Shown here in pieces: positions 7,497 to 21,813 of a stretch of DNA of 22,761 bases. Position 1 is the stretch's first letter, and each line of letters begins with the position of its first letter. Under the pieces are notes generated by a model, which searched no databases, had not been told where the DNA came from, and saw only the letters and a list, made by a program, of their open reading frames with translations. The translations under genes were made by a program, and so were the position numbers. This DNA comes from a virus: positions 1 to 22,761 of IMG/VR virus record IMGVR_UViG_3300033484_000013. The stretch is one strand, 5' to 3'.

Positions 7497-7648
7497 GGCA
7501 GAAATCCGGCGCGGCGGGCCTGCGCTTGGCTGTCACAAGCCACCGCGGCTTCTCCCACAGCGTTGACCGGGACCGGCAGCGCAGGCGGGTGACCCGGTGC
7601 CGCCGCGGCCACCGGGTGGAATGGGGAGAGCCGCAACGTCGCCCTCAT
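7493..7648 (-). CDS. Very small phage protein of unknown function (51 aa)
   Basis: A 51-residue frame, MRATLRLSPFHPVAAAAPGH..., fills the space between DUF3486 and the winged-helix gene exactly. It starts with ATGA on the DUF3486 stop and ends with ATGA on the next start. The sequence is Ala/Pro-rich with no recognisable domain. The double ATGA junction is the main evidence that it is translated. It may be a coupling ORF or a remnant. Confidence 0.5.
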   Translation of the reverse strand: MRATLRLSPFHPVAAAAPGHPPALPVPVNAVGEAAVACDSQAQARRAGFLP

Positions 7649-8208: not shown

Positions 8209-8486
8209 CAGCGCACCCGCTCCACACCATCGACCGCCAGCCGCCGCGCTGCCACGTCGCGGCCGTCGTCGGTGATGTCGGCGACGAGATACGGCCCGGC
8301 CTCGGTGGTGGCGACGAGGCCGCGGTCGGCGAGCCATTCGAGCGCTTCGCGCACCGTGCGGCGCGCGGCGGGGTGGCCGACGCTCGACAGGCTGGCCGCG
8401 ATCACCTCGTCGTTCATCGCGACGCCCGCGGCGTCGAGGAACTTCAGGATCGCGCCGCGCAGCACGGCCGCCACGATCTCGTTCAC
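8208..8486 (-). CDS. Mu gp26-like winged-helix protein (92 aa)
   Basis: The product (MNEIVAAVLRGAILKFLDAAG...) has the layout of a winged-helix protein: a helical start, RRTVREALEWLADRGLV as recognition-helix region, then ATTEAGPYLVADITDDGRDVA as wing. Its place between DUF2730 and DUF3486 is that of Mu gp26 and its relatives. The GTG start overlaps the DUF2730 stop as GTGA. Function in the phage is not established; involvement in packaging or late regulation is plausible. Confidence 0.7.
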   Translation of the reverse strand: MNEIVAAVLRGAILKFLDAAGVAMNDEVIAASLSSVGHPAARRTVREALEWLADRGLVATTEAGPYLVADITDDGRDVAARRLAVDGVERVR

Positions 8487-8917
8487 CTTCCGCCCCGCAT
8501 CGCAGTCTCGACGACCGGGCGCAGATAATCGTGCAGCACGTCGACCTTGTCGCCGATCCCCTCGATCTTGCCGTCGAGCCGCTCGACCTTGCGGCTGACC
8601 TCGCTGATCTCCTTCGACAGCTCGCTGCGCGTGGGGCTGTCCTTCAGGTGCACCTCGATCAGCGCCAGCCGCTTGTCGGCGCCGTCGTGCCGCTCGCTGA
8701 GGCGCATGACCTCGGACTTCAGCAGCGTATCGGTCATGTCGACGCGGCCCTTCAGCTCGTCATGCTCGGCGCGCTTCGGGAACTTGGTGCCCAGCCATGC
8801 GAGCGTCGCCCACAGCGCCGCGCCGCCGACGGGCATCAGCAGGAACAGCACGATGTCGTCGAGATAGGTGATCCACCAGCCGGGCGAGCCGATGGGGGCG
8901 TTTGGGATCAGGTTCAC
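8483..8917 (-). CDS. Membrane-anchored coiled-coil protein, DUF2730 (Mu gp25-like)
   Basis: The 144-residue protein has one membrane segment near residues 20-42 (IVLFLLMPVGGAALWATLAWLG) followed by a long heptad-rich helix (residues 50-135) with repeated Leu, Ile and Val spacing, for example VERLDGKIEGIGDKVDVL. This is the DUF2730 layout. It follows the endolysin directly with a GTGA overlap, so it may take part in lysis, for example as a spanin- or holin-like helper. That role is inference. The GTG start at 8917 is chosen because upstream codons are shadow of the endolysin. Confidence 0.8.
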   Translation of the reverse strand: MNLIPNAPIGSPGWWITYLDDIVLFLLMPVGGAALWATLAWLGTKFPKRAEHDELKGRVDMTDTLLKSEVMRLSERHDGADKRLALIEVHLKDSPTRSELSKEISEVSRKVERLDGKIEGIGDKVDVLHDYLRPVVETAMRGGR

Positions 8918-9378
8918 GGGCGGATACCCCGCTCGGTGCCCCGCGAGCTGACGGTCAGCACGCTGCGGCGCAGGCGCCCGTCGCGGTAGGAGACATGGAC
9001 CCAGCCCGATCGTGGCTGGCCGGGCGTGTGGAACTCCAGGATCAGCTGATCGAACTGGCAGTGCGCCTCGATCGCGCGCGCGAGCTCGACATTGTCGAGG
9101 GCCGGGCACTCGATGTCCGCCGCCTCGCCCAGGCAGTGCTGCGAGGTCGGCACGCCGCCCACCGCCTTGTTGACCGCGACCGAGCGGAAGCCCGAGTTGA
9201 CGTAGATCGGCCCGACACGGGCGCGCAGCGGCTCCAGCACGCGCTCGCACAGCGTCGTCAGCGACGCGATTGCGGCTGGGCCGGGGATGTTGGGGAGGCC
9301 CCTTCGCGCCGCGACTTCGCTCCGCGTCAGCTCGGCGAGCGTGAAGTTGGGGCTGATGCGGGTGGCGAGGTCAATCAC
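8914..9378 (-). CDS. Endolysin, peptidase M15 family (DD/LD-carboxypeptidase type)
   Basis: The 154-residue protein shows the M15A zinc signature: SQHCLGEAADIE (H81 and D88) and a late WVHVSY (H128), with an acidic residue near E115 as likely catalytic base. The N-terminal ISPNFTLAELTRSEVAARRG and the central VNSGFRSVAVN are typical of the family, which cuts peptidoglycan stem peptides. There is no signal peptide, so a holin or similar would be needed for export. It is the second gene of the leftward late operon, matching a lysis cassette. The GTG start overlaps the previous gene by 8 bases. Confidence 0.9.
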   Translation of the reverse strand: MIDLATRISPNFTLAELTRSEVAARRGLPNIPGPAAIASLTTLCERVLEPLRARVGPIYVNSGFRSVAVNKAVGGVPTSQHCLGEAADIECPALDNVELARAIEAHCQFDQLILEFHTPGQPRSGWVHVSYRDGRLRRSVLTVSSRGTERGIRP

Positions 9379-9541
9379 GCGCGCCCTCCCGCTGCTTGAG
9401 GCGGTAGAGGACGTCGATCAGCGCGCCGCCGGAGCGGCTGCAGGGATCGAGCGGCTGGGGCCTGAAGGCCGCCTGCAACGCCGCTGCAGCGCGGCTGAAG
9501 CGCTCGCCGCGCGGCTGCGGATCGGGGGTCGGGTGCGGCAC
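9371..9541 (-). CDS. First small gene of the leftward late operon (56 aa)
   Basis: I chose the GTG at 9541 because a GGAG lies 9 bases before it. A longer frame to 9580 has no ribosome site. The protein starts MPHPTPDPQPRGERFSRAAA and ends in a short helical part (SGGALIDVLYRLKQREG). No membrane segment is visible, so it is not an obvious holin. It overlaps the endolysin start by 8 bases. Function unknown. Confidence 0.5.
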   Translation of the reverse strand: MPHPTPDPQPRGERFSRAAAALQAAFRPQPLDPCSRSGGALIDVLYRLKQREGARD

Positions 9542-9593
9542 GGGCGGTGGCTCCGGTTGGATGCGGAGCAACCCTCGCACGCGCGCGGGGCTG

Positions 9594-9622
9594 GCTTACC
9601 CCGGCGCGGACGCCGGGGTGTG
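9594..9622 (-). promoter_or_regulatory. 29-bp dyad element upstream of the leftward late operon
   Basis: Read on the minus strand, the element is CACACCCCGGCGTC followed by CGCGCCGGGGTAAGC. It contains ACCCCGGC, six bases, GCCGGGGT (9598-9619), a perfect dyad. The same element with two mismatches stands at 20086-20114 before the rightward late operon, in the same orientation relative to transcription. It lies 56 bases before the first late start codon and downstream of the Mor-like gene. Mu Mor and C bind interrupted dyads upstream of middle and late promoters, so an activator site is the favoured reading. A Rho-assisted terminator hairpin is the alternative; no T-run follows. Confidence 0.55.
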
Positions 9623-9637
9623 ACGGGCGGCGGCCGG

Positions 9638-9668
9638 GGGTAGTGAGGACGTCTTGTTGGGACTACCC
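9638..9668. repeat. Inverted repeat with 7-bp arms in the late control region
   Basis: GGGTAGT (9638-9644) and ACTACCC (9662-9668) are perfect inverted arms separated by 17 bases. The pair lies between the hairpin after the Mor-like gene and the 29-bp dyad. It could be a second regulator site or simply part of an RNA fold. Seven bases in GC-rich DNA is only modest evidence. Confidence 0.35.
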
Positions 9669-9678
9669 TCCGGGTCCC

Positions 9679-9708
9679 GGGCGGGAGTGGCTTCGGCTGC
9701 TCCCGCCC
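9679..9708 (-). terminator. Strong hairpin with UUCG-type loop after the Mor-like gene
   Basis: GGGCGGGAG pairs with CTCCCGCCC, continued by two wobble and two GC pairs, closing on TTCG on the plus strand (CGAA on the minus strand). The total is about 13 pairs. It lies 14 bases beyond the stop of the Mor-like gene and would end the early/middle leftward transcript before the late operon. There is no T-tract, so it may pause polymerase or protect an RNA end rather than act as a textbook terminator. Confidence 0.5.
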
Positions 9709-9721
9709 CTTGCCCGTGCGC

Positions 9722-10207
9722 CTAAAGCTCCATCTCGAACTGGCGCAGGCGGAAGGCGAGGCCGCGTTCGAAGCGGTCGCGCGGCGACGCGGTGTCGCCC
9801 GCCTCGGCGAGCCAGCCGCGGATGGTCTTCTGCGAGGTGTGGGCGCGCCACGCAGCCTCCGCGAGGCTGATCGCGCCCGTCCGCGCCTCGGCGAGGATCG
9901 GCTGGCAGCGCGCGACGACGATCGCCTGCTTCGCGCACGGCACCGCGAGGCGCGTCCCGCACATCAGGTCGGCGATCGCCTGTGCGGCCTCCTCGCCCAC
10001 CGTCCTGGGCACCGGGCTGCCGGGCTGCCAGCGCCGCGGCACGGTCAGCTCCAGCCCGCCCAGCGCGTCGCACAGCACCAGCGCCGCGCGCTCGCCGATC
10101 ACGTCGGCCAGCTCGTGCATCACCGGCGTCCAGCGCTTGCAGCGGCGCGGCTTGTCCGGGATCGGCGGCAGCTCGGGGCGGTGCAGCCGGCTGAACGCGC
10201 GACTCAT
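9722..10207 (-). CDS. Mor/C-like transcriptional activator of middle or late genes
   Basis: The 161-residue protein has the Mor-family outline: HELADVIGERAALVLCDALG, then GLELTVPRRW, then VGEEAAQAIADLMCGTRLAVP, and a C-terminal helix-turn-helix, SLAEAAWRAHTSQKTIRGWL. Mu Mor and C are dimeric activators that bind dyads just upstream of middle and late promoters. It is the last gene of the leftward early operon, immediately after GemA (ATGA overlap) and before the late control region, exactly Mor's place in Mu. The N-terminal 30 residues are basic and extra. The family call is moderate, supported strongly by position. Confidence 0.65.
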   Translation of the reverse strand: MSRAFSRLHRPELPPIPDKPRRCKRWTPVMHELADVIGERAALVLCDALGGLELTVPRRWQPGSPVPRTVGEEAAQAIADLMCGTRLAVPCAKQAIVVARCQPILAEARTGAISLAEAAWRAHTSQKTIRGWLAEAGDTASPRDRFERGLAFRLRQFEMEL

Positions 10208-10959
10208 GAGGCTTCGCCCTTGCGAGCGGCCTTCCACGCGGTGCGCCGCCACAGCTTGCCGAGCGCGGTCACGCCGCGCTCCCAGTCGCGCGAGGTCCAT
10301 TCGGGCGGGTGGCGGCTGCTGACCGCCGATCGCAGCCAGTTGGTCATCGGCTCGAACCCCTGCTCGCGCACCGCGTGCGCGTCGTAGAGCCTGGCCCACA
10401 GCGCCTCGCAGACCGCGGTCGCTGGCCAGACGCGCAGCAGCGCGGGCGGAGCGCTCCAGATGTTGCGCCACTCGCGCCGCTCGTCGTCGGCGGGCCATTG
10501 GACGCCCGCGCGCGTGCACCAGTCCTTCAGCGCCTCGATCACGCTGTGGCACTGGCGGGGCGGCAGGAATTTGAGCGCCGCCATCCCAGTCTGCCGCTCG
10601 ACGAAGCGGTCGAGCGCCTTCAGCACCTGGCCGGGCTCCTCGGGCGCGATCTCGTTCAGCCAGTAGAGGTTCCACCAGAGCGCGACGGCCTTGGCGTGCG
10701 CGGGGCGCTGCGCCGCGCGGCCGTCGGGGCGCGGCAGGGCATTCACCGCATCGAGCGCGAGGCCGAGCTCGGCGAGGTCGCAGTCGGCGGCCGAGCGCTT
10801 GCCCGTCGCGCGTTCGAGGATGGAGCGGTAGTCCTCCTCGCAGATCTTCCGCACCGCGCAGGCGGCGCGCAACGCTTTGATGCGCGCGGCGCGGCTGTCC
10901 ATCTTGCCCAGCGTCACCTGTAGCTTGCGGTGGGCAGCCAATCCGAGTGTGACGGCCAT
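10204..10959 (-). CDS. gemA: GemA-like regulatory protein (Mu gp16, DUF1018)
   Basis: The 251-residue protein contains the DUF1018 signature in its N-terminal half: KLQVTLGKMDSRAARIKALR, then CEEDYRSILERATGKRSAADC, and WLNEIAPEEPGQVLKALDRF. Its C-terminal half ends in a basic stretch (LWRRTAWKAARKGEAS). In Mu, GemA modulates host gene expression and DNA topology; the mechanism is poorly known. The start has GGAGAG four bases upstream and overlaps the preceding stop (TGATG). The gene lies just before the Mor-like gene, as in Mu. The C-terminal part is longer than in Mu gp16. Confidence 0.8.
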   Translation of the reverse strand: MAVTLGLAAHRKLQVTLGKMDSRAARIKALRAACAVRKICEEDYRSILERATGKRSAADCDLAELGLALDAVNALPRPDGRAAQRPAHAKAVALWWNLYWLNEIAPEEPGQVLKALDRFVERQTGMAALKFLPPRQCHSVIEALKDWCTRAGVQWPADDERREWRNIWSAPPALLRVWPATAVCEALWARLYDAHAVREQGFEPMTNWLRSAVSSRHPPEWTSRDWERGVTALGKLWRRTAWKAARKGEAS

Positions 10960-11261
10960 CAGTCTCTCCGGTAGTTGAGCCAGGGGCGGGGGGCGGTGGT
11001 CCAGCGGGCGCGATGGGCGTCGCCCAGCGCGCGGGCCTGGGCGATGCCGTCGGGGTCGACGCCGCGAAGGCGCTGGGCGAGGCGGTCGCGCGCGGCCTCG
11101 GCGACGTCGAAGCCGAGCGGGCGGCCGTCGTCGGCGTCGCGCAAGAGCCGCAGCCGCTCGGCGACAGCCACGCGGTTGAAGCGCGCGGCCGGGCAGGCGG
11201 CGGGGCGCGCGGGCTGCGCGGCAACGACCGACAGCCGCGCGCGGATGGCGGTGAGGGTCAT
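10959..11261 (-). CDS. Small early-region protein of unknown function (100 aa)
   Basis: The product starts MTLTAIRARLSVVAAQPARP and is very rich in arginine and alanine, ending in WTTAPRPWLNYRRD. It may be helical and nucleic-acid-binding from its charge, but no domain is recognised. It has a GGGAGG ribosome site and ends in TGATG with the GemA start. Codon use fits the operon. Confidence 0.6.
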   Translation of the reverse strand: MTLTAIRARLSVVAAQPARPAACPAARFNRVAVAERLRLLRDADDGRPLGFDVAEAARDRLAQRLRGVDPDGIAQARALGDAHRARWTTAPRPWLNYRRD

Positions 11262-11287
11262 GCTCCCTCCCTGATGGTGCGATGTGC

Positions 11288-11311
11288 GGGGCGGCGGCGC
11301 TGCGCCGCCCC
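11288..11311. other. GC-rich hairpin inside the early operon
   Basis: GGGGCGGCG and CGCCGCCCC pair perfectly (9 bp) around a six-base loop. It sits in the only real gap of the distal early operon, 5 bases after the stop of the 11316-11531 gene. No T-run follows. It could attenuate expression of the 100-residue gene, gemA and the Mor-like gene, and so delay late activation. Confidence 0.45.
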
Positions 11312-11315
11312 GGGA

Positions 11316-11531
11316 TCAGGCGCGCTGCGCTGTGCGCTCGCGCTCGGTTTCGAGGACGTCGTGCACCATGATGCCGACGCACGCGGCCTGCCGCTCCACA
11401 CAGTGGAGCAGCGCCGACAGATCGGCGCCGGTGACGACGCTGGTTCCGGCCTCGGCGACGAGGACCGAGAGGCAGGAGATGGCTCCGGAGAGCTGCCCGG
11501 CCTCGAACTCCAGATCCATCGCCTCAGCCAT
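11316..11531 (-). CDS. Small acidic protein of unknown function (71 aa)
   Basis: MAEAMDLEFEAGQLSGAISC begins a 71-residue acidic, helical protein with three cysteines and a hydrophobic core (CLSVLVAEAGTSVVTG, CVGIMVHDVLE). Third codon positions are strongly GC-rich in this frame, which decides against the longer overlapping frame that runs to 11258. No good ribosome site is visible before the ATG. Function unknown. Confidence 0.6.
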   Translation of the reverse strand: MAEAMDLEFEAGQLSGAISCLSVLVAEAGTSVVTGADLSALLHCVERQAACVGIMVHDVLETERERTAQRA

Positions 11532-11596
11532 GACGCGGCGTCCCGGTCCTGCGCACGCGCAGCTCCAGCGAAGTTGTCGACGATCAGGGCGCTCAC
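11532..11596 (-). pseudogene. Possible N-terminal stub of a phage C5-cytosine methyltransferase
   Basis: A GTG at 11596 overlaps the previous stop (GTGA) and encodes VSALIVDNFAGAARAQDRDA before running into the next gene in another frame. The segment LIVDNFAG is the usual beginning of phage C5-cytosine methyltransferases, where it continues GGGAS as AdoMet motif I. Here the glycines and everything after are absent. I infer that a deletion removed the enzyme and left its first ten codons. Only eight residues carry the similarity, so this could be chance. Confidence 0.35.
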
Positions 11597-12003
11597 GACC
11601 TCACCCCCGCTTCCCGGGCGTCGTGCGCGGCGGCGATGGTGCGGTAGCGATCGGCGTGGACGATCGCGAAGGCGAGGACGTGACTGTCGGCGTTCTCGCG
11701 CGCCCACTGGCTGGGCTCGGGCAGCGGATCGCGGAGCACGCCGTCCGCCTTCAGCTTCGCGACCTCGCGTTGCGCGCAGTGGCGCACCTGCTCGGGGAAG
11801 CCCTCCCACCAGTGCCAGCAGGCGACGAGCGCGATCAGGATCAGCGCCAGCAGCAGCGCGCCGATCAGGCGCATCCCCGCGCGACGGGCGCAGATGCGCT
11901 GGACGACGCGCGGGTTGCCCATGCAGCTCTCGCACAAAAGCAGCGGCGTCAGCGGGCGGATCAGCCCGCAGCCGTCGCACTGGATGAAGCCGGGCGCGCT
12001 CAC
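11593..12003 (-). CDS. Zinc-ribbon membrane protein of unknown function (136 aa)
   Basis: The protein opens with a four-cysteine zinc ribbon (C9-x2-C12 and C24-x2-C27, CDGCG ... CESCM), followed by a basic patch (RICARRAGMR) and one membrane span at about residues 44-63 (LIGALLLALILIALVACWHW). The remaining 70 residues are soluble, with a possible helical bundle. The basic patch before the span predicts the zinc ribbon inside the cell and the C-terminal part in the periplasm. The GTG start overlaps the previous stop as GTGA. It might act at the host envelope during early infection, for example in exclusion; this is a guess. Confidence 0.65.
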   Translation of the reverse strand: MSAPGFIQCDGCGLIRPLTPLLLCESCMGNPRVVQRICARRAGMRLIGALLLALILIALVACWHWWEGFPEQVRHCAQREVAKLKADGVLRDPLPEPSQWARENADSHVLAFAIVHADRYRTIAAAHDAREAGVRS

Positions 12004-12308
12004 AGCACCAGCTCCCCGCACCGCGCCTCGGCAGCGCGCAGCCAGTTGCGCAGCGCGCCCGCGTAGCTCGACGTGCTGGTCGAGCGGATGTCTGCGAAGC
12101 GCACCACGTGGTGGTGCGGCGGCGTCAGCGTGCAGCGGCCGCCATTCGCCTCGATCACCCCGGCGAGCGCCTTCTCGGCGCGGTCGTAGTTCTCGCGCCA
12201 GACGATGGAATAACGGTCGATGACCGCCGCGCAGTCGCGCTCATGATCGCGCAGCGCCTCGCGCGCGATGGCGACGGCGCGGTTGAGCGGGAGGTTCGGC
12301 GCGCTCAT
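12000..12308 (-). CDS. Early-region protein of unknown function (102 aa)
   Basis: MSAPNLPLNRAVAIAREALR begins a 102-residue protein. The first 60 residues look helical (DHERDCAAVIDRYSIVWREN). A histidine cluster (PPHHHVVRF) follows in the second half. No family recognised. The start overlaps the 31-residue membrane peptide gene by ATGA and the stop overlaps the next gene by GTGA. Confidence 0.65.
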   Translation of the reverse strand: MSAPNLPLNRAVAIAREALRDHERDCAAVIDRYSIVWRENYDRAEKALAGVIEANGGRCTLTPPHHHVVRFADIRSTSTSSYAGALRNWLRAAEARCGELVL

Positions 12309-12400
12309 GCCCGCCCTCCCCAGATCGTGAGGGCGAGGTCGGTGAGGGCGAGCGCGAGCGTGAACCACGTCGCGCGGCGCAGCAGCGGATAGCCGGTCAC
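12305..12400 (-). CDS. 31-residue single-span membrane peptide
   Basis: A GTG at 12400 overlaps the preceding stop (GTGA) and the frame ends with ATGA on the next start. The peptide starts MTGYPLLRRATWFTLALAL and ends LTIWGGRA. One hydrophobic segment of about 18 residues follows a basic RR, so the N-terminus should face the cytoplasm. Overlapping junctions at both ends and the coherent membrane segment argue that it is translated. Small early membrane peptides of phages include Kil-like growth inhibitors and superinfection-exclusion proteins, but the function here is unknown. Confidence 0.55.
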   Translation of the reverse strand: MTGYPLLRRATWFTLALALTDLALTIWGGRA

Positions 12401-12657
12401 CGGGCGCCTCCCATGATCGCGGTGGTCTGGGCGAGCACCTGGTCGGCGGCCTGGTCGAAGAAGGCCATGAACTCGGCCTCCGACAGCGTCACCGTCGCGC
12501 GGTGGCGCCAGAGCGGGCCGTCGCGGCCCTCGACGATCAGCGTCATGCCGTCGGTGCCGCGCGCGACGGCCTTCACCCGGCCGTTGGGCACGAACAGCGC
12601 GGGGAGCGCGGCCGGCGCCACGGGCGGCGCGGCCGATGTGGGAAGCGGATCAGGCAT
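12397..12657 (-). CDS. Early-region protein of unknown function (86 aa)
   Basis: I use the ATG at 12657 (MPDPLPTSAAPPVAPAALPA), which has GGAG 8 bases upstream and overlaps the LexA-like gene by 8 bases. A longer frame to 12687 is possible but lies inside that gene. After a proline-rich start the protein has a small strand-rich domain (NGRVKAVARGTDGMTLIVEG) and a helical end (SEAEFMAFFDQAADQVLAQT). No family recognised. Confidence 0.65.
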   Translation of the reverse strand: MPDPLPTSAAPPVAPAALPALFVPNGRVKAVARGTDGMTLIVEGRDGPLWRHRATVTLSEAEFMAFFDQAADQVLAQTTAIMGGAR

Positions 12658-12928
12658 CGGTGGTCTCCGGTTGCAGGGAGGTTTCAATGGCGCGGGCGCT
12701 GCGGCGGCAGAGCGTCGGCGGCGGCAGCGCGAGGCCGCGGGCCACGGCGGGCGCGCGAACGATCAGCCCGCGCGCGACGAGGGCGGTGATGCGCTCGTGG
12801 AGGGCCTTGCGTTTGACGCCCAGCGCCGCCTGCATCTCGTCGTAGGTGGGCGGGCACCCGGCCCGCAGGCGCGGCTCCAGCCACGCCCACAGCTCGCGCT
12901 GCCGCGGGGTGAGGGGGATGTGCGTCAT
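12650..12928 (-). CDS. Stand-alone LexA-type winged-helix DNA-binding protein (92 aa)
   Basis: The first 65 residues match the LexA DNA-binding domain: LTPRQRELWAWLEPRLRAG, PPTYDEMQAALGV, then KALHERITALVARGLIVR. The peptidase half of LexA is absent and the protein ends after another 25 residues. It would bind DNA, possibly LexA-like operators, but could not self-cleave. This suggests either a phage regulator insensitive to DNA damage or interference with the host SOS network; neither is shown. The start overlaps the preceding gene by ATGA. Confidence 0.75.
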   Translation of the reverse strand: MTHIPLTPRQRELWAWLEPRLRAGCPPTYDEMQAALGVKRKALHERITALVARGLIVRAPAVARGLALPPPTLCRRSARAIETSLQPETTDA

Positions 12929-13278
12929 TGGATCGTCCCCCAGGACGGACCCTTGCGGCCGATCTTCCGTTCTTCCAGCCGATAGCCTTCGGTGAAGTTG
13001 GCGGTCATCGTAATGAAGGCCGCTGTCCGCGCGGCCCCGGCACCACCGACGAAGTGATCCGACAGGATCGCGTTCGTCCGGGCGGCTCGCGCTCCGGCGA
13101 TCAGCCCACAGGCGGCATAGAACATCGACACATCGTCGAGGCTGGTATTGCCGTCCGGCGCGATGATCCTGCAGGCGGCCGCGTCCATCGCCCGCGCGAT
13201 CTCGCGGATTTTCTTCGGGTCGAACTTCGCCTCGAAGGGCTCGCGCTTCGCGGCCCCGGCTCGTGCTTCGCGGCCCAT
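12925..13278 (-). CDS. Early-region protein of unknown function (117 aa)
   Basis: MGREARAGAAKREPFEAKFD begins a 117-residue basic protein. The middle (ILSDHFVGGAGAARTAAFIT) is glycine/alanine-rich and the end is basic (EERKIGRKGPSWGTIQ). It directly follows Gam with overlapping start and stop, so it may join in DNA protection or replication, but I recognise no family. Confidence 0.65.
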   Translation of the reverse strand: MGREARAGAAKREPFEAKFDPKKIREIARAMDAAACRIIAPDGNTSLDDVSMFYAACGLIAGARAARTNAILSDHFVGGAGAARTAAFITMTANFTEGYRLEERKIGRKGPSWGTIQ

Positions 13279-13832
13279 CACGCGGCCTCCCTCAGCTCGG
13301 GGGTGGCGGGGTCGGCGGCCTCGATCGGCGAGACGAAGAACTCCTCCGTCTGCTCCAGCGTGAAGCCCAGCTTGCGCAGGAACGCGGCCTGCGGCGTATC
13401 GAGCTTCAGCGCCTCCATGATCGCGGGCTTGTCGAGCGCGGGGTGCAGCCGCACGAGCTGCCCCTGGAAATTGTCCTGCAGCACGCGGACCGCCTGCTCT
13501 TCGGTAAGGCCGGGGTGCGCGAGCTTCGGGTTCGACAGCCGGTCGCCGATCTGCAGCCCGGCGATCTCGGTGGACTTCTTCTTGCCGCCGGTCACCTCGG
13601 CCTTCGCGACCGCCCACCACGCCTGCAGGCGGCGGAAGCCTTCCTTCAGCGACAGCTCGACGGGCTTCAGCTGCCGGTCGCGCTCGGCGCGGATGCTCGC
13701 GATCGCCTCGTCGGCGACGAGCTTCAGCCGCCGCTTCTCCAGTTCCTGCGCGTGATAATGCGATGCGCAGAGCACCGCCTCGTTCCAGGTCGCGGGCGCA
13801 TCGAGCGCACCCGCCTTCCGGCGCCTGGCCAT
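13278..13832 (-). CDS. gam: Host-nuclease inhibitor, Mu Gam family
   Basis: The 184-residue protein has the Gam layout: a long N-terminal coiled helix (ELEKRRLKLVADEAIASIR, then LKEGFRRLQAWWAVAKAEV), a short basic turn, GLQIGDRLSNPKL as central hairpin, and a helical C-terminal part. Mu Gam is a Ku-like dimer that coats double-stranded DNA ends and blocks exonucleases. Its place downstream of A and B matches Mu. The start overlaps the previous stop (TGATG) and the end overlaps the next gene. Confidence 0.85.
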   Translation of the reverse strand: MARRRKAGALDAPATWNEAVLCASHYHAQELEKRRLKLVADEAIASIRAERDRQLKPVELSLKEGFRRLQAWWAVAKAEVTGGKKKSTEIAGLQIGDRLSNPKLAHPGLTEEQAVRVLQDNFQGQLVRLHPALDKPAIMEALKLDTPQAAFLRKLGFTLEQTEEFFVSPIEAADPATPELREAA

Positions 13833-14215
13833 CAGGTCCTCTCCTTCTCGTGCTTGTCGGTGTTGAAGCGGCAGGTGGGGCACGCGCGCGCGAAGACGTG
13901 CGCGCCCATCGACGTCGGCGTGTGCGTGGCGCGCCGGTTGCGGATGCAGGTCTTGAGCGCGATCGACGCGCCGACGGCGGGGCAATCGACGCGCGCTTCG
14001 ACGAGGCGCGACATCACCTTGCGCTCGATCTCGTCGTAACCCGCGGCGTAGGTGTGGTTGATCACGCGGCTGACCGCGCCCGAGGACAGGCCGATCTTGT
14101 CGGCGACGATGCGCTGCGAGGTAGCGTCGCATGCGTCGGCGAGCTTCTTCACCCACTCGGGCGGCAGCGGAGCCCAGGCGGCGAGCGCCTTCTCGCGGTT
14201 GACCGGACCCTTCAC
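13832..14215 (-). CDS. Helix-turn-helix early protein (127 aa)
   Basis: Residues 20-70 contain a lambda-repressor-like helix-turn-helix: ATSQRIVADKIGLSSGAVSR, then HTYAAGYDEIERKV. This resembles the N-terminal DNA-binding region of Mu B and relatives. Toward the end there are cysteines (CIRN ... CPTC) that could hold a metal. The position downstream of B suggests a free-standing partner of the transposition machinery. GTG start, GTGA overlap with the previous gene. The HTH is fairly clear; the function is inferred. Confidence 0.7.
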   Translation of the reverse strand: MKGPVNREKALAAWAPLPPEWVKKLADACDATSQRIVADKIGLSSGAVSRVINHTYAAGYDEIERKVMSRLVEARVDCPAVGASIALKTCIRNRRATHTPTSMGAHVFARACPTCRFNTDKHEKERT

Positions 14216-14883
14216 GGGCGCCTCCGGCCGAGGATCGGGCCTTTCAGCCCCTCGGGCCTGCGCGTGACGTCGCAGAGATAGCCGGTGTTCGGATCATGGA
14301 AGTTGAGCGTGCGGCCACCAGCCTCGTCGGTCCGGTGCAGGAGAGAAGGCGGCTTCGCGCCGGTGTGCTTCAGCACCATCCAGCGTGTGGTCTCGCCCGG
14401 GCGATTGCCGGGTCCGCGCACCGGCCGGGTGTAGCCAGCGTAGTAGAGCCGGAGCAGGTAGGGCCGCGCGGTCGTCACGGGCACCTGTGAGACCGTCGCG
14501 AGCTGGTCGACATCGAACGGCCCGCGCAGGCGCAGCAGGCGCAGCGCGCGCCACATGCGCTCCTGGCCGGTGGTGCGCGGCGTGCAGCCGGGCCGCCTGA
14601 CCGGGCTCTTGGCGCTGACGCCAGTCACGATCGGCAGCGTGCGCGGTGCACCGGCTTTCGCGCGCCAGCTGCGCCGCTCGCGCTGCCCGTCGGCGCGCTC
14701 GCCGCCCTCCGCCAGGACGAGCTCGACCAGGCCAGCGCGCTTCCACTTGTTGAGCGTGTTGCTGACCGAGCGCACCGAGGCGCTCCCGCCAGCGTGCGCC
14801 CAGAGCGCAGTCGCGGTCATCGGCTGCGCCGCGGCCACCAGCGCCGACCAGACGCCGTCCATGGAGGCGGGCGCGCGGCCCAT
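14212..14883 (-). CDS. Protein with two winged-helix-like segments (223 aa)
   Basis: Two regions look like winged helices. Residues 8-60 read WSALVAAAQPMTATALWAHA with SVSNTLNKWKRAGLVELV, and residues 108-160 read MWRALRLLRLRGPFDVDQLA with VTTARPYLLRLYYAGYTRP. They are joined by an Arg-rich linker. It probably binds DNA and may assist B or act in replication of the phage DNA. The start forms TGATG with the end of B. No named family recognised. Confidence 0.65.
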   Translation of the reverse strand: MGRAPASMDGVWSALVAAAQPMTATALWAHAGGSASVRSVSNTLNKWKRAGLVELVLAEGGERADGQRERRSWRAKAGAPRTLPIVTGVSAKSPVRRPGCTPRTTGQERMWRALRLLRLRGPFDVDQLATVSQVPVTTARPYLLRLYYAGYTRPVRGPGNRPGETTRWMVLKHTGAKPPSLLHRTDEAGGRTLNFHDPNTGYLCDVTRRPEGLKGPILGRRRP

Positions 14884-15657
14884 CAGGCAGCAAGCCGCCG
14901 GGCCGGCAGCTCGCCGGTGAGGATCGGGCGGTCACCCCACCATGCGCGATCGATGTCGGTGACGCCGACGGCCTTCGCCGCGCTCTGCGCATTGAGGAGT
15001 GTCGTCACCAGTCGGCGGGCATTGCCGCCGCTGACGGTCAGGAAGTGGTGGAGCAGATCGTCGGCGATGCCGACGCGGCCCGACTTCAGGTCCTGCTCGC
15101 TCGGCGTGTCCTTCCACGCGCGGCAGCGGTTGTCGCGCAGCGCGCGGGCGTCCTCGAAATCGGTCGGCTGCGCCTTGACCCATGTACGAACGCGGTTGTG
15201 GACGTGACCCCAGCGGCGGATGCTTTCGGGGAAGGTGTCCTCGCCCACGAACAGGATCGGCATCTGCGAGCGGTCGGAGATCTTGCGCGCGACCTGGATT
15301 AGGTTGAGCTTCAGCAGGAAGTCGGCCTCGTCGAGGATGATCGGCCGCTGCTGCTCGACCAGCGCTTCGACGACCTGGTGAAACAGTCCTTCGAAGGTGC
15401 GCTCGGGCGACTTGATGTGCAGCTCACGCGCGAGCTCGGTCATCAGCCACTTCTTGCCGATGCCCTCATAAGCCTCGACATAGACGGCATCGAGCTGAGC
15501 GCCGCAGAAAAAAAACGCTCTCGGTCTTGCCGAGGCCGGAGCGGCCATAGAACACGCCGAAGCGTGGTGTTCCGAACTCGGCCCCGACCAACTCTTCCAG
15601 AGTCTGCAGCGCCAGTGTCATGTTGGTCGTCGGTGCAGGTGGTGGTCGCATCTTCAC
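14883..15657 (-). pseudogene. B: Transposition target-DNA ATPase B (AAA+), frameshifted in an 8-base homopolymer
   Basis: The product is the MuB-type AAA+ ATPase that binds target DNA, delivers it to the transposase and provides target immunity. Walker A is GRSGLGKT (about residues 38-45) and Walker B is IILDEADFLL in the second frame. Coding runs in one frame from the GTG at 15657 to GKTESV, then a run of eight T on the coding strand (15508-15515) puts the continuation (FFCGAQLDAVYVEAYEG...) one base out. With seven T the frame is continuous for 257 residues. As written the first frame stops soon after the run. This could be a sequencing error, a true mutation, or transcriptional slippage that makes some functional B. 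The GTG overlaps the end of A (GTGA). Confidence 0.85.
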
Positions 15658-17285
15658 GATAGGTTACCTTCCGCCTTTGAGAACAGCTTCTCGATGCGCT
15701 TCTGCGCACGATATTCAGGTTCTCCGCGCATCATGTTCGCCCGCGCGAAGTCCCGTTCTTCGACGGGTTCACCCGCAGCTGCGCGCGCGAGGATGGAGTC
15801 GACCCAGCGCATCCGTTCGGCCGGGGTCATGGCTTCGAGCGTCGGTGCCGCTGGCTCGGCGGTCAGCGCCGACTTGACGCGCTCGGCGACGTCGGGCCGG
15901 ATCGCGATCAGCTGCGGCTTGGGCCGGGGTGGCGCGATCGGCGCTAGCGGTTCGGGCGCACGATCGAGGGCTGGCGCCAGCATCTCCGCCTTGGCTGCGC
16001 GCGCCTCCCAGATGATCTCCTCGGGCCGCCAGCGCCTGGCCGCTGCGAGCAGTTCGGCCTGCAGCTCGGCGACCGCGCGCTCCTTCTTGCGGCCTGCCGC
16101 GATCGCGAAGTCACGCTTGGAAAGCCCGAGCGCCTCGTGGTTCAGCGCCTCCCCGATCAGGTTCCAGCGCTGATCGAAGACCAGGAGGCGACCGATATCG
16201 TCCTCCATGCGACGGACGCGGACGCGCTCTCCGTCGCGGCCGATCAGGCACTCGCTCCAGTAGCTGTGGCCCTGATGAACTAGACCCTGCTTGCCCCTCA
16301 CGGTCTTCTCGCCCAGATCCTCGGCGAGCGCGGCGATCAGGATGTTGCGGTCGGGCAGCTCGGCCGGGCGATAGCCTTCGGGCCAGCGCAGCACGCGCTC
16401 GGCTGGCATCTCGCCGGTGGCGCCGTGCGGGCGCAGCCGGTAGCGCCCCGCCAGATACGCGTCGTAGAAGCGCTGCGCCTCCTGCGGGGTGTGGCTGCCG
16501 GTGATCACCGCGCGGCCGGTTTCGCGCTTGGCCTGCGAGCGCAGGCGCTGGGCGGCGGCGACGTTCGGGCCGGTATAGCCGGGGATCAGCCGCGACCCCG
16601 CGTGCATCAGCGTGCGGATGAACGCTTCGACGAATGGCTTCCGGTAGGGCTGCCCGGGGAGGCAGTAGCGCATCTCGATCCCCAGCAGCTTCGCGGCCGA
16701 CTTGACCGACAGCGACGCAAGGCCCGAGCCGTTGTCGGTGCGGATCGCTTCCGGGACCGCGCGCCAGTAGAGGATCGCGGAGAGCAACAGCTTCCGGACC
16801 GCTTCCGAACTCTCGCTGTTGTCGACGATGACGACCGCGTCGCGGCTCCAGACGTCGACCGCGACGAGGACCGTCTTGCGCCCCTCGCTCGTCATCACGT
16901 CCATCTTGGTCGCGTCGATTTCCCACAGCTGGTGCGGGCGCGAGACCTCGGCCGCCATGTCGCCCGCCGCGAGCATGTGGCGGCTGCGATAGCCGTCGCT
17001 GTCGTGCAGGCGGGTCAGCACCTCGCCGTGGCGCGCGCGGAAGTCTGCGACGAAATAGCGGACGGTTCGGTAGGAAGGCGCGTCCCCGCCATAGCGCGCC
17101 TGCAGCAGCTCGTGCGCGTCGGCGGCCGAGGCGTGGGAGTTCCTGGTCAGCAGGCTGCGCACCATGCCCACCGCCTGCGGGTGCCGATCGAACCAGCCCG
17201 ATCCAGCAGGGCGTCCACGGCCCGACCGCGGCTGCGCGGCAGGCGCGAAGTCCGCAGTGACGAGGCGGAGCAGCGGGCGGGTCAT
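15654..17285 (-). CDS. A: Transposase A, Mu-type DDE recombinase
   Basis: The 543-residue protein carries the DDE triad: WEIDATK (D124), IRTDNGSGL (D184) and KPFVEAFIRT (E220). The last two are 35 residues apart after the first, as in DD35E recombinases. Residues 25-110 form the end-binding helical region, and the C-terminal part (from about 330) contains the beta-barrel and a tail that would contact B. It is shorter than MuA (663 residues): the N-terminal enhancer-binding domain (Ialpha) appears absent, and Ner is a separate gene upstream. It would cut and join phage ends during integration and replicative transposition. Start overlaps ner by ATGA. Confidence 0.93.
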   Translation of the reverse strand: MTRPLLRLVTADFAPAAQPRSGRGRPAGSGWFDRHPQAVGMVRSLLTRNSHASAADAHELLQARYGGDAPSYRTVRYFVADFRARHGEVLTRLHDSDGYRSRHMLAAGDMAAEVSRPHQLWEIDATKMDVMTSEGRKTVLVAVDVWSRDAVVIVDNSESSEAVRKLLLSAILYWRAVPEAIRTDNGSGLASLSVKSAAKLLGIEMRYCLPGQPYRKPFVEAFIRTLMHAGSRLIPGYTGPNVAAAQRLRSQAKRETGRAVITGSHTPQEAQRFYDAYLAGRYRLRPHGATGEMPAERVLRWPEGYRPAELPDRNILIAALAEDLGEKTVRGKQGLVHQGHSYWSECLIGRDGERVRVRRMEDDIGRLLVFDQRWNLIGEALNHEALGLSKRDFAIAAGRKKERAVAELQAELLAAARRWRPEEIIWEARAAKAEMLAPALDRAPEPLAPIAPPRPKPQLIAIRPDVAERVKSALTAEPAAPTLEAMTPAERMRWVDSILARAAAGEPVEERDFARANMMRGEPEYRAQKRIEKLFSKAEGNLS

Positions 17286-17572
17286 TGCGGCCCTGCCCTG
17301 CGGCCGCAGCGCGGGCGCGGCTGCGGCGACTTGCGCGAGCCGTCCGGATGATATCGTGACGGCCAGATAACTTCCGGGTGCAACCCGAGCGTCTTCGCGA
17401 TGGCGCGTTCGGCCGGGCCATGCGGGCGGTGGAGTGCAAGGGAGATAACCTGACGATGCAGCAGATGAGCCTCCGCCACCTGCCGGAGGGTCACGTCGCG
17501 CTTTCGGATCGCTGCCTTGATGTCCTCGGGATGCCAGTCCCGGGCCCGCAGGCCGTCCCTCTCCATGGACAT
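17282..17572 (-). CDS. ner: Ner-like early regulator (helix-turn-helix)
   Basis: The 96-residue protein matches Mu Ner/SfsB: DWHPEDIKAAIRKRDVTLRQ, then HLLHRQVISLALHRPHGPAE, RAIAKTLGLHPEVIWPSRYH. Ner is a small DNA-binding protein that shuts down early and repressor transcription once the lytic cycle starts. It is the first leftward gene, divergent from the repressors across an 80-base control region. The ATG at 17572 is used; a second ATG lies two codons later. No strong SD precedes it, so it may be translated from a leaderless or short-leader message. The C-terminal 20 residues are basic. Confidence 0.9.
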   Translation of the reverse strand: MSMERDGLRARDWHPEDIKAAIRKRDVTLRQVAEAHLLHRQVISLALHRPHGPAERAIAKTLGLHPEVIWPSRYHPDGSRKSPQPRPRCGRRAGPQ

Positions 17573-17652
17573 ATGATGTGCCCTGCGGGACTTTGCTTTG
17601 TCAATGCGGTTCCACTAGCGCGCAAAAAAGTTTCGGAGGGCGCCCAGGCGGC
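17573..17652. promoter_or_regulatory. Divergent control region between ner and the repressor genes
   Basis: This 80-base region must hold the early leftward promoter, the repressor promoter and operators. On the minus strand a perfect -35-like TTGACA lies at 17604-17599, but the hexamer 17 bases on (GCACAT) is a poor -10. ACAT-ATG-ATGT (17569-17579) is a small dyad overlapping the ner start and a candidate operator. The rightward repressor has GGAGGG at 17635-17640. The region is AT-richer than the flanks, including AAAAAA. Exact promoters cannot be fixed from sequence alone. Confidence 0.5.
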
Positions 17653-18312
17653 ATGAAGCCGGAGTGGAATTTCTCAGCTGACGCGAAAGATCGGCTGCGC
17701 CGCGCCGTCGAGCGCTGGGGCAACCAGGCGCGCGCCGCGGCGGCGTCGGGCCTCAACAAGCAGACGGTACAGCGACTGCTCGATCCGAAGGTGGAAAGCG
17801 ATGTGTCGCTGACGCGTGTCGCAGCGCTTGCGCGAACCGTTGGCGTCAGTCTCGACTGGGTTATTCACGGGCGGCAGGAGCCCGCGTCCGGACCCGGAGA
17901 GGAGTTTGGCTTAGTGGCGCTCTACGATATCGAGTTGGCGGCTGGGCATGGCCGCCAGCCGATGACCGAGGAGCCGACGGGGTTTTTCGCGTTCAGGCAG
18001 GATTATCTGAACCGCTTCGCCGACCGGTCAGCACTCGCGGTCCTGACGGTCAGGGGCGACTCCATGACGCCTGAGCTGCAGGACGGCGATAATGTGCTAA
18101 TCGACCGGGCGCAGTCCCGCGTGGGGGACGGCATCTATGCCGTGCGCCTCAGCGATCAGCTGCTGATCAAGCGGGTGCAGCAGATGGTTGGCGGCATCTG
18201 CCTGCGGAGCGACAACCGAGCCTATGAGCCTCTCTACCTGGCCAATGGCGATCCCGAGTGGGCGATCCTTGGCCGGGCCGTGTGGGTCGGCCGCAAGCTG
18301 GCAACCGATTAG
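17653..18312 (+). CDS. CI/LexA-like prophage repressor 1 (HTH + S24 peptidase)
   Basis: The 219-residue protein has an N-terminal helix-turn-helix (residues 12-70; GNQARAAAASGLNKQTVQRL) and a C-terminal LexA/S24 domain with the serine in RGDSMTPELQDGD (S137) and lysine in LLIKRV (K173), spaced 36 residues as in LexA. An Ala-Gly bond in ELAAGHG (97-98) is in the right place for self-cleavage, so induction by RecA after DNA damage is plausible. The ATG at 17653 is preferred over upstream codons in frame because the HTH starts here. It should keep the early operon silent during lysogeny. Confidence 0.85.
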   Translation: MKPEWNFSADAKDRLRRAVERWGNQARAAAASGLNKQTVQRLLDPKVESDVSLTRVAALARTVGVSLDWVIHGRQEPASGPGEEFGLVALYDIELAAGHGRQPMTEEPTGFFAFRQDYLNRFADRSALAVLTVRGDSMTPELQDGDNVLIDRAQSRVGDGIYAVRLSDQLLIKRVQQMVGGICLRSDNRAYEPLYLANGDPEWAILGRAVWVGRKLATD

Positions 18313-18327
18313 AGGACCGTAGAGCGC
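18271..18327 (+). repeat. Direct repeat at the end of repressor 1 (copy 1 of 2)
   Basis: These 57 bases align without gaps to 18964-19020. The first 29 are identical (codons for GRAVWVGRKL) and about 19 of the next 28 match, running past the stop codon into non-coding DNA. This shows that the two repressor genes arose by tandem duplication including their 3' flank. Confidence 0.75.
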
Positions 18328-18354
18328 TATTCCTGCGTGGGAAGGGGGTAAATC

Positions 18355-18996
18355 TTGTTAACGAGCGACGAGAGGGACCGCTTGCGGGAGGCGATCCGGC
18401 GTGCGGGCGGCTACGACCGTGTTCACGCGGCGACCGATATCCCTGTGTCGACGCTGAAGAAGATGGTTGGCGAGGCGAGCGATCCGGGGTTCAGCCGAAC
18501 GGCGAGGGTTGCCCGTGCAATAGGTCTCGGGCTGGAGGAGTTGGCGTTTGGCGACGCTCCGGGCTCAAGCAAAAGCGGCATGTCTGAATTCGGGCACATC
18601 CCGCTCTATGACGTGGAAGTGTCTGCCGGAGATGGACGCACGGGAACCCTCGAGCGGCCAGTCGGCACGCTCGCATTCCGTGAGGACTATCTGCGAAGGT
18701 TCAGCGACCGGTCGAAGCTCGCTGTGCTGCTCGTGCGCGGCGATTCGATGGTGCCCGAGCTGCAGGACGGCGACCATCTGCTGATCGATCAGTCAGAGCG
18801 CCACGCGGCCGAGGGGCTTTGCGTGGTTCGGTGGGGCGACCTACTGATGGCGAAACGGATTGTTCGAACGTCGGCGAGCGGCATGCGACTGGTCAGCAGC
18901 AATCCCATCTACCCGCCGATCGAGATCGACCGCGACGCCGAGGGCGACAACTTCGCGATCATCGGCCGGGCCGTGTGGGTCGGCCGCAAGCTCTGA
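18355..18996 (+). CDS. CI/LexA-like prophage repressor 2 (HTH + S24 peptidase)
   Basis: The 213-residue protein begins at a TTG with a strong ribosome site (AAGGGGG). Its C-terminal S24 domain is clearly related to repressor 1, about half identical by eye, with the serine in RGDSMVPELQDGD (S131), lysine in LLMAKR (K167) and an Ala-Gly bond in VSAGDG. The N-terminal 60 residues (REAIRRAGGYDRVHAATDIP, TLKKMV) differ from those of repressor 1, so the two probably recognise different operators. It may be co-transcribed with repressor 1, 42 bases downstream. The weak TTG start suggests lower expression. Its distinct role, perhaps controlling the other arm of the phage, is inference. Confidence 0.85.
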   Translation: MLTSDERDRLREAIRRAGGYDRVHAATDIPVSTLKKMVGEASDPGFSRTARVARAIGLGLEELAFGDAPGSSKSGMSEFGHIPLYDVEVSAGDGRTGTLERPVGTLAFREDYLRRFSDRSKLAVLLVRGDSMVPELQDGDHLLIDQSERHAAEGLCVVRWGDLLMAKRIVRTSASGMRLVSSNPIYPPIEIDRDAEGDNFAIIGRAVWVGRKL

Positions 18997-19020
18997 GCCG
19001 TTTTAAGGCCCGTGGAGCGC
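18964..19020 (+). repeat. Direct repeat at the end of repressor 2 (copy 2 of 2)
   Basis: Partner of 18271-18327, 48 of 57 positions matching without gaps by hand alignment. Here the stop codon falls three codons earlier in the alignment than in repressor 1, so part of what is coding in copy 1 is non-coding here, yet similarity persists. Confidence 0.75.
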
Positions 19021-19142
19021 CTTCGAATCGCCGCCCGGTGTCTGACGCCAGACGACCCGCAAAAGGCGCCCAGTGGGGCTGGGCACGGCTGCACAGGGCT
19101 TTCCCGCCGGCACCCCCGTCCGGAGCCCGCTAGAGCGCGAGC

Positions 19143-19451
19143 GTGAAGCCAGACGAAGACGCTGCCGCACTGCCGGTGACGCCAACGGCGAGCCGATCGT
19201 TGCCCGCGCTTGCAACCGCCTCGCTCGTCGTGACGGCAGTGTCCACGGCGGCGATGGCGATCTGGCTCATTGCACCCGGCTCGCTGCGTCCCGGCATCTT
19301 CGGACCAAGCCAGGCGGTGTGCGCGAGAGCGGCGGGACAGGAAGCCGAAGCCCGCGCCAGGCTGCTTACCAGTCGCAACGACCCGTATAACGCCATGATC
19401 GCTGCCAGCGAGATCAAAAACCTTCAGGTGGTGCTGAGCCGCTGCGACTGA
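19143..19451 (+). CDS. Small single-span membrane protein (102 aa)
   Basis: The GTG-initiated product has a polar start (MKPDEDAAALPVTPTASRSL), one membrane segment at about residues 22-46 (LATASLVVTAVSTAAMAIWLIA) and a 55-residue soluble tail with two cysteines. Codon use is looser than in the late genes, like that of the repressors. It lies between the immunity region and the capsid operon on the same strand as both, a place where phages often carry genes expressed in the lysogen. It could be an exclusion or envelope protein; no family recognised. A ribosome site is not obvious. Confidence 0.55.
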   Translation: MKPDEDAAALPVTPTASRSLPALATASLVVTAVSTAAMAIWLIAPGSLRPGIFGPSQAVCARAAGQEAEARARLLTSRNDPYNAMIAASEIKNLQVVLSRCD

Positions 19452-19650
19452 CGGGTGGCGTTTGCGTCGGAGGCTTCCAACCGATTAGGCCGCGCAGAAC
19501 CGCTCGCAAACTGCCTTAAGGTCCGTCCGTAGCGCGGCACCCCCCCGAAAAAGCGCTGGCGGGGCTGTGAAAGGGATTCCCAGGCCGATCGTTCGGCGCC
19601 GCGACCCTGCAAAGCTGGCAACGGCACCGCGAGCGGGCTACAACGCGCGC

Positions 19651-20025
19651 GTGAACGCCGTCCGGTCGATCATCGCGCTCGCCGCGGCGCTGGCGTTGGC
19701 CTCCTCTCCGGCGGGTGCCGCGCGCAAGGCGTCGGCCGCACGCAAGCTCTGCTGGCAGGGCTATTGCCCCTGCACCGGCCCGTACCGCGACGGCCCCGAT
19801 TTCATGATCTGCCGCCAGCTGCGCGCGGGCATCCACGTGGAACCCCGCATCCTCGCTGCTGCGTCGGGCCTGCGCGACGCACGGCGGCAGATGGCGGAGT
19901 TCTCGTGGGGCGGCGATACGAGCCTCCGCGAGAAGCGGCGGATCACACGCGATCCCTGCCTGGGCATCGAGACCCCAAGCGAGATACGGCTGTGCGAGGC
20001 CGAGCACGATCAGCCCCGCCACTAG
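19651..20025 (+). CDS. Small secreted, cysteine-containing protein (124 aa)
   Basis: From the GTG at 19651 the protein has a signal peptide: NAVRSIIALAAALALASSPA with a likely cut after AGA (about residue 22). The mature part holds CWQGYCPCTG and further cysteines (MICRQ, DPCLG, RLCEAE), six in all, suggesting disulfides in the periplasm. A longer frame from 19567 adds 28 residues that would mask the signal peptide, so I prefer the shorter start. Third codon positions are GC-rich in this frame. No family recognised. It may be a lysogenic-conversion gene. A minus-strand frame across the same DNA also begins with a signal-like sequence but has worse codon use. Confidence 0.6.
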   Translation: MNAVRSIIALAAALALASSPAGAARKASAARKLCWQGYCPCTGPYRDGPDFMICRQLRAGIHVEPRILAAASGLRDARRQMAEFSWGGDTSLREKRRITRDPCLGIETPSEIRLCEAEHDQPRH

Positions 20026-20060
20026 CGCCAGCCTCGCCACCGCGGCGCTGATCGGCTAAG

Positions 20061-20079
20061 CCCGCCCGCGCGCGGCGGG
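20061..20079 (+). terminator. GC hairpin after the secreted-protein gene
   Basis: CCCGCC and GGCGGG pair around a seven-base CG loop, 35 bases after the stop of the 19651 gene. No T-run follows. It may reduce read-through from the immunity side into the capsid operon. Confidence 0.4.
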
Positions 20080-20085
20080 GAATTC

Positions 20086-20114
20086 CACACCCCGGCGTCG
20101 GTGCCGGGGTAAGC
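20086..20114 (+). promoter_or_regulatory. 29-bp dyad element upstream of the rightward late operon
   Basis: The element reads CACACCCCGGCGTC then GGTGCCGGGGTAAGC and contains ACCCCGGC, six bases, GCCGGGGT (20089-20110). It matches 27 of 29 bases of the element before the leftward late operon, in the same sense relative to transcription. It ends 30 bases before the protease ATG. A CTACAG at 20131-20136 is a possible -10-like hexamer, which would put the dyad centre near -43. A Mor/C-type activator site is the favoured reading; a terminator hairpin is the alternative. Confidence 0.55.
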
Positions 20115-20144
20115 GTCGACGCGGCCCGCTCTACAGCCGTCTCC

Positions 20145-21110
20145 ATGACGGCCCGCGTCCCTGTCCGCTTCCGGATCCTCCGGCCCCGCAAGACGGCGGA
20201 CGTGCGCGGGCGTCCCGTCGAGTTCCGGTCCGAGCATCTCGACCAGGTCGTCGCGAACTTTGCCGCCGAGGGATCGAGGGTGCCCGTCGTCATCGGCCAC
20301 CCGGAGACGAACGCCCCCTCCTACGGCTGGGTCAACAAGGTCGAGCGCGTCGGCGACGCGGTCTATGCGGACGCCGACGTCCACCCCTCCTTCGCGGCGG
20401 TGCTGAAGGACGGGTTCTACGGCCCTGTCAGCCCCTCGCTGTGGGGGCCGGAGCAGCCCGGCAACCCAAAGCCCGGCGAATGGACGCTGCGCCACATCGG
20501 CGTGCTCGGCGCCGCCGCCCCCGCCATCCCCGGCCTGGAACCGGTGGAGCTGAGCGGCGGCCACGAAGACTTTCAGCTCATCGAGGAGCAGGACCCCGTG
20601 ACCTACAAGACCACCGACCTCGCCGCCGAGCTGGCGGCGAAGGAAGCCGCGCTCGCCGAGCGCGAGGCGAAGCTGGCCGATGCCGAGAAGGCAGCGGCTG
20701 CCGCCCAGGCCAGGGCCGTGCGCGACGGCGCGATGGCGTTCGCCGCCGGGCTGGTCGACGCGCACAGGCTGGCCCCGGCCGCGAAGGACGCGGTCGTCGA
20801 GCTGCAGGTCGCGCTCGCTGGTGCCGCGGTCGAGCCGTTCGCCTTCGCTGCGGGCGGCGACAAGGTCGACCCGCTGACCGCCTTCCGCAAGCTGTTCGAA
20901 GGCGCGCAGCCGCTGGTGCCGCTGGGCGAAGTCGCCGGTGCTGCGACCGATCCTGAAACAGGCTCGACATACACCTTCTCGGCGCCCGTCGGCGTCGCCG
21001 TCGAAGCGCGCGGCGCCAAAATCGATGCCGAGGCCAAGCGGCTGATGGCTGCCGACCCGAAGCTTTCCTACAGCGAGGCCGCCATCCGCGCCTCCAAGTC
21101 CATCGCCTGA
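20145..21110 (+). CDS. Head maturation protease with scaffold tail, Mu I-like
   Basis: The 321-residue protein matches the Mu I-like family. Residues 1-140 form the protease part (HLDQVVANFAAEGSRVPVVI, GHPETNAPSYGWVNKVERV, FYGPVSPSLW, LRHIGVLGAAAPAIPGLEPV). Residues 160-195 form an Ala/Glu/Lys-rich coiled coil (AAKEAALAEREAKLADAEKA), typical of the scaffold half that is removed as the head matures. The C-terminal end is helical (AEAKRLMAADPKLSYSEAAI). In Mu this gene follows F on the same strand; here it opens a separate rightward operon. No clear SD precedes the ATG, so the message may start very near it. Confidence 0.85.
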   Translation: MTARVPVRFRILRPRKTADVRGRPVEFRSEHLDQVVANFAAEGSRVPVVIGHPETNAPSYGWVNKVERVGDAVYADADVHPSFAAVLKDGFYGPVSPSLWGPEQPGNPKPGEWTLRHIGVLGAAAPAIPGLEPVELSGGHEDFQLIEEQDPVTYKTTDLAAELAAKEAALAEREAKLADAEKAAAAAQARAVRDGAMAFAAGLVDAHRLAPAAKDAVVELQVALAGAAVEPFAFAAGGDKVDPLTAFRKLFEGAQPLVPLGEVAGAATDPETGSTYTFSAPVGVAVEARGAKIDAEAKRLMAADPKLSYSEAAIRASKSIA

Positions 21111-21123
21111 GGAGCGCGATCCG

Positions 21124-21789: not shown

Positions 21790-21813
21790 CCGTCCGGCCA
21801 GGAGCCCGATCCC

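Follow-up and report, generated by a model that had tools for sequence, protein, structure and literature searches.

The stretch analyzed here, the whole of the 22,761-base IMG/VR virus record IMGVR_UViG_3300033484_000013 (hereafter, the window), covers part of a Mu-like phage in which a 29-base-pair (bp) palindromic element occurs twice, once ahead of each of two divergent late operons. By analogy with the promoters of Mu, these two elements are most probably the operators of a single activator of the Mor/C family, which protein would switch on both late promoters. The copy read on the minus strand from 9622 to 9594 (CACACCCCGGCGTCCGCGCCGGGGTAAGC; copy A) and that on the plus strand at 20086-20114 (CACACCCCGGCGTCGGTGCCGGGGTAAGC; copy B) agree at 27 of the 29 bases, as the sequence-only reading had claimed; both mismatches fall within the 6-bp spacer (N6), and the flanks, CACA and TAAGC, are the same in the two copies. 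The core, ACCCCGGC-N6-GCCGGGGT, which that reading had proposed to look for elsewhere in the phage, has exactly these two occurrences in the record.

At 70% GC a single dyad of such a size is not rare—lone dyads with 8-bp arms and a 6-bp spacer number four in the window and zero to five per shuffled sequence—and the improbable part of the arrangement is the repetition along with the flanks. When the 29-mers of the window were compared for pairs agreeing at 26 or more positions, only the dyad pair and one direct repeat between the repressor paralogues turned up, and 15 Markov shuffles contained no such pair. Exact searches of IMG/VR with the dyad of the window returned mostly terminators with a T tail or matches within coding sequence, in phages unrelated to the window, which candidates we set aside; likewise, the sole IMG/VR match for CCCGGC-N6-GCCGGGGTAAGC in a search with the TAAGC flank, at 8427-8450 of L315, belongs to an unrelated contig, whose 9.1 kb locus resembled none of the Mu-like proteins tested, and looks like chance. 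As regards a REP or other dispersed repeat, the dyad copies amount to two in the phage record, with one apparent chance match in IMG/VR. An alternative centre through the GGGGTAAGC half, resembling the GGTAAGC dyads of L215 and L236, was dropped, as the other half misfits.

Both copies point into a late operon, and on this the gene calls agree with the sequence-only reading: endolysin, terminase, portal, and MuF-like genes lie to the left; protease, cement, and capsid genes to the right. The earlier placement of a Mor-like gene at the end of the early operon was confirmed as well (Table 1). Copy A is located 100 bp past the stop codon of that gene, and copy B 30 bp upstream of the protease ATG.

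We compared the window with relatives found through portal alignment among prophages and viral contigs, the closest being mainly from Sphingomonas and Sphingobium, and took the protease regions from the same records; single-protein searches with the transposase (genomes and viral contigs) and with the portal (viral contigs) gave no close relative. The main comparison comprised 23 phages—the window and 22 relatives, some of which are close kin and thus not fully independent. All 22 relatives keep the layout, with the Mor-like gene, the lysis genes, and the portal in one direction and the protease in the opposite one. When the phages were aligned at the protease ATG, dyad symmetry peaked solely at centres -46 to -44, where at least five of the six pairs were present in 17 of the 23, the window included; the remaining centres between -80 and -26 contributed eight such cases among them. 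A hexamer like CTATCC or CTAAGC follows, some 14 bases upstream of the ATG, so placed that, counted from the dyad centre, T stands at +33 in 17/21 and A at +34 in 19/21 of the protease-side sites. No Shine-Dalgarno-like motif was found directly before the protease ATG in any of the 23 phages. The dyads themselves vary among the relatives (GTCCG.., GTAAGC.., TGCGC.., GTCCC.., TTTCC..).

Each protease-side dyad was searched over the 14-22 kb portal-side locus of the same phage. In 19 of the 22 relatives the top match lay just past the Mor-like gene, at the start of the lysis operon (in several of them after one small gene); in L225 the site past the Mor-like gene was the second-best match. The sum of the own-pair matches was 288, compared with a mean of 234 upon permutation (standard deviation 5.1, maximum 256; 20,000 permutations). 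Judged from these sequences, then, the dyads differ between phages and covary between the two sites in each phage. In the lysis-side sites, which were chosen by the dyad match alone, the base at +34 from the centre is A in 16 of 16, the window included, and that at +38 is T in 10 of the 16; three sites overlapping the end of the Mor-like gene, with A at +33, were left out of this count. Conservation in the bacterial -10 element is highest at positions two and six, and the A at +34 would fit the second base of a -10. The spacing of the lysis-side dyads is for the most part without a tie to the start codon, which circumstance sets a promoter explanation apart from a translation-based one. Among the holdouts, L316 and L318, found later via another protein, contain perfect dyads of new sequence, centred at -44 and accompanied by a -10, and L367, whose late genes are collinear, has both sites, in each of which +34 is A and +38 is T.

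With respect to the putative activator, the 161-residue product of the Mor-like gene matched PHROG_836, annotated 'late transcriptional activator' (E 2e-19), and in hhalign a profile of that protein with 18 relatives aligned with one that contains Mor and C of Mu along with activators from other phages (98.4%, E 5e-15), which by profile places it in the Mor/C family. Its structure, predicted with confidence (predicted local distance difference test score, pLDDT, of 86), had as best viral fold match a Mor-like factor, with a probability of 1.0 and an E-value, 8e-3, of modest significance. A Mor/C-like gene occurs once per record in 13 of 14 relatives, and the window has a single real match; this copy number suggests that one activator may do the work of the Mor and C of Mu. 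In L226, at approximately 5936-6229, the Mor-like gene looks truncated or frameshifted (97 amino acids, in a record with no PHROG_836 match), yet both dyads are present.

The window displays at both copies what is expected of Mor/C-dependent promoters: inverted repeats, 5 bp or longer, separated by a GC-rich spacer of 6 bp; a centre that would fall near -43.5, about 32 bp before the proposed -10; and a location before the lysis and the protease (I) genes, shared with the relatives. At copy B the dyad centre is at -45 from the protease ATG, and the proposed hexamer, TACAGC, starts at +33 from that centre. Neither dyad region contained a sigma-70-like promoter or a recognisable -35.

Table 1. 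Features of the window discussed in the text; promoter elements and binding functions are proposals.
Feature	Position	Strand	Remarks
Dyad copy A	9594..9622	-	CACACCCCGGC-GTCCGC-GCCGGGGTAAGC; centre between 9608/9609; proposed activator site of the lysis/packaging late promoter
Dyad copy B	20086..20114	+	CACACCCCGGC-GTCGGT-GCCGGGGTAAGC; centre between 20099/20100; proposed activator site of the protease/capsid late promoter
Proposed weak -10, GAGGGT	9571..9576	-	TG just upstream, at 9579-9578; hexamer starts 32.5 bp from dyad centre; has A at +34
Proposed -10, TACAGC in gcTCTACAGCcg	20132..20137	+	hexamer starts 32.5 bp from dyad centre, where relatives have TATCCx/TAAGxx
Mor/C-like activator gene	9722..10207	-	161 amino acids; last gene of early operon; proposed binder of both dyads
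Strong hairpin	9679..9709	-	between Mor-like stop and copy A; CGAA loop on this strand, UUCG on the other; fold -26.9 kcal/mol
First open reading frame of leftward late operon	9371..9541	-	56 amino acids; GGAG ribosome site 9554-9551; followed by endolysin, 8914-9378
Leftward late operon	392..9378	-	endolysin, DUF2730-like, terminase 4394-5953, portal 2808-4394, MuF-like 392-1588
Rightward late operon	20145..22761	+	head maturation protease, cement/scaffold protein, major capsid protein; runs off record
GemA-domain open reading frame	10204-11382	-	gene call
AAA transposition protein	14883-15548	-	gene call
Transposase	15654-17285	-	gene call
Two S24-type repressors	17578-18312 and 18355-18996	+	gene calls

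From these sequences we infer the following course of events: the Mor-like protein, made last in the early operon, would bind ACCCCGGC-N6-GCCGGGGT as a dimer, at a site with its centre some 44 bp ahead of the transcript start, and, in replacing the missing -35 contact, would recruit or activate the host RNA polymerase. The two divergent late promoters would then fire, with starts at about 9564 and 20144, and the lysis/packaging and the capsid genes would be turned on together; the second start would be one base before the protease ATG at 20145, thus at or beside the start codon. Such a cascade would have a single tier, one activator serving where Mu uses Mor and then C. For the sphingomonad Mu-like phages in general, we lean somewhat towards a one-tier late switch of the same kind, with a single Mor/C protein, two divergent promoters, dyads about 44 bp upstream, pairs of dyads that are diversified yet matched within each phage, and a leaderless or nearly leaderless capsid message.

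In Mu, Mor binds as a dimer to inverted repeats of 5 bp that flank a GC-rich spacer of 6 bp, with the centre at -43.5 (PMC4390567); related dyads in Plys, PI, PP, and Pmom are bound by C (PMC4287176), and the transcription of lys, I, and P requires C (PMC4461284). Judged by this analogy, the parts found in Mu recur in the window at corresponding places and would constitute a familiar kind of switch in an unusual layout. As in the window, Plys and PI have a dyad upstream of a weak -10 before the lysis gene and the protease gene I, respectively, and the activator gene is just upstream of the lysis operon; whereas the late operons of the window are divergent, its arms are longer and perfect (8 bp), a single Mor/C homologue is seen in place of Mor followed by C—apparently one activator for two—and the protease message would be nearly leaderless. 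Pm shares with the window the inverted repeats, the GC-rich 6-bp spacer, the position at about -43.5, and an activator encoded last in the early operon, by GemA; but Mor drives the middle operon (gene C) of Mu and not the late operons.

Other Mu-like phages offer a similar picture. In RcapMu, RR1-B, RS1, and B3, from alphaproteobacteria and Pseudomonas, one dyad stands before both the lysis and the protease genes of each phage, as in the window, although their late genes run mostly in one direction, the dyad sequences differ, and a T-run follows in RcapMu and RR1-B; we found no published description of these sites in the literature searched. In the latter two phages the near-identical dyads precede TTTT before both the lysis and the protease genes (L123 at 13945 and 22367; L125 at 11530 and 18994). 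Burkholderia phage KS10 likewise has divergent late operons around an early region and a single annotated Mor, which gene, in contrast to that of the window, adjoins the protease operon and not the lysis operon; there the shared site is only weakly visible.

The dyads might alternatively be intrinsic terminators, each stopping the transcript ahead of its late operon, and be alike as copies of one insulator. They do fold as strong RNA hairpins (-19.4 and -17.6 kcal/mol), Mu has hairpins past mor and C, and the comparable dyads of RcapMu and RR1-B run into TTTT, with one copy at the activator stop codon that could be terminator and operator at once. Furthermore, a same-strand gene precedes each copy in the window—the Mor-like gene, with its stop at 9722, before copy A, and a probable small gene ending at 20025 before copy B—so that position alone did not decide against termination; and the argument of the sequence-only reading that conserved flanks are not expected of terminators was weaker than stated: conserved flanks by themselves do not exclude a terminator, and the comparable dyads of RcapMu and RR1-B have a short T-run. 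Nevertheless, we consider termination very improbable because no T-tract, which would be a U-tract in the transcript, follows the dyads of the window or any of the 23 protease-side dyads. In addition, another hairpin, a candidate end of the early transcript, already precedes copy A; the spacing to a -10-like hexamer is a constant 32 bp, with A in all 16 lysis-side sites; some dyads of the relatives (TGCGC-N2-GCGCA) are too short to terminate; and the protease-side dyad of RS1 comes after a gene on the opposite strand.

That another phage regulator, for example an S24-type repressor or the PHROG_2030 regulator, uses the dyads as operators in order to repress the late promoters in the lysogen appears quite unlikely to us: two S24 repressors and a further regulator are indeed encoded, and the positions of class-II activators can double as repressor sites, but no further copy of the dyad lies near the repressor and early promoter region, the dyad position matches that of Mor/C sites, the partner site in the relatives is by the Mor-like gene and the lysis operon, and with no -35 at the late promoters an activator would be needed. 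Scarcely credible, in our estimation, is a function in RNA, as 5' leader structures controlling the stability or translation of both late messages. The dyads fold well as RNA and are near gene starts; in the relatives, however, a -10-like hexamer lies between the dyad and the start codon, so that the dyad would be upstream of the transcript, and the arm length varies at a constant distance to the hexamer, which pattern fits a DNA site.

The interpretation of the elements as operators of the Mor/C type, as the sequence-only reading had proposed, thus held in comparison, through the family profile, the Mu-like positions, the fixed geometry, and the dyads matching within each phage. Several results nonetheless weigh against it. 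The exact dyad of the window is absent from all the relatives found, so that the case for the window rests on analogy of geometry; no good lysis-side partner was detected in L222, L132, L316, or L318; and the -10 hexamers of the window are weak, above all GAGGGT. As to the protein, the Pfam Mor domain (PF08765) scored 21.4 bits, under the gathering cut-off of 24.9, with matches at E<0.01 in 4 of the 19 members of the family, and searches of solved structures by sequence and by fold recovered no Mor. Finally, the similarity of the helix-turn-helix was weakly correlated with that of the dyad among phages (Mantel r 0.30, p 0.02), but a link between recognition helix and dyad beyond overall protein similarity was unsupported (partial p 0.39).

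The operator interpretation would convert a repeated palindrome into a testable promoter rule for a group of some 25 Mu-like phages, which are uncultured or little studied: given a single protein, a pair of sites, and an invariant distance, the onset of late genes would become predictable from sequence. Dyads that vary between phages and match within each could allow the DNA recognition of the Mor/C family to be worked out; if the interpretation is true, they would amount to a naturally occurring set of activator-operator pairs, each different from the others. A protease message with next to no leader, as we infer it, would be unexpected for a capsid operon.

Elsewhere in the window, the S24-type CI-like repressor paralogues adjoin each other and carry a near-identical direct repeat of 29-30 bp at their 3' ends (at about 18266 and 18959), the pair thus looking like a tandem duplication of the repressor gene. 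The probable small gene between the repressors and the protease operon (19567-20025, plus strand), with a high GC content at third codon positions and a signal-peptide-like start, had no PHROG or Pfam match for its product and is possibly a cargo gene. In another viral contig, of 36.7 kb (L032 and L034; IMGVR_UViG_3300006467_000173), we observed four palindromic copies of CACCCCGGC-N6-GCCGGGGT(G).

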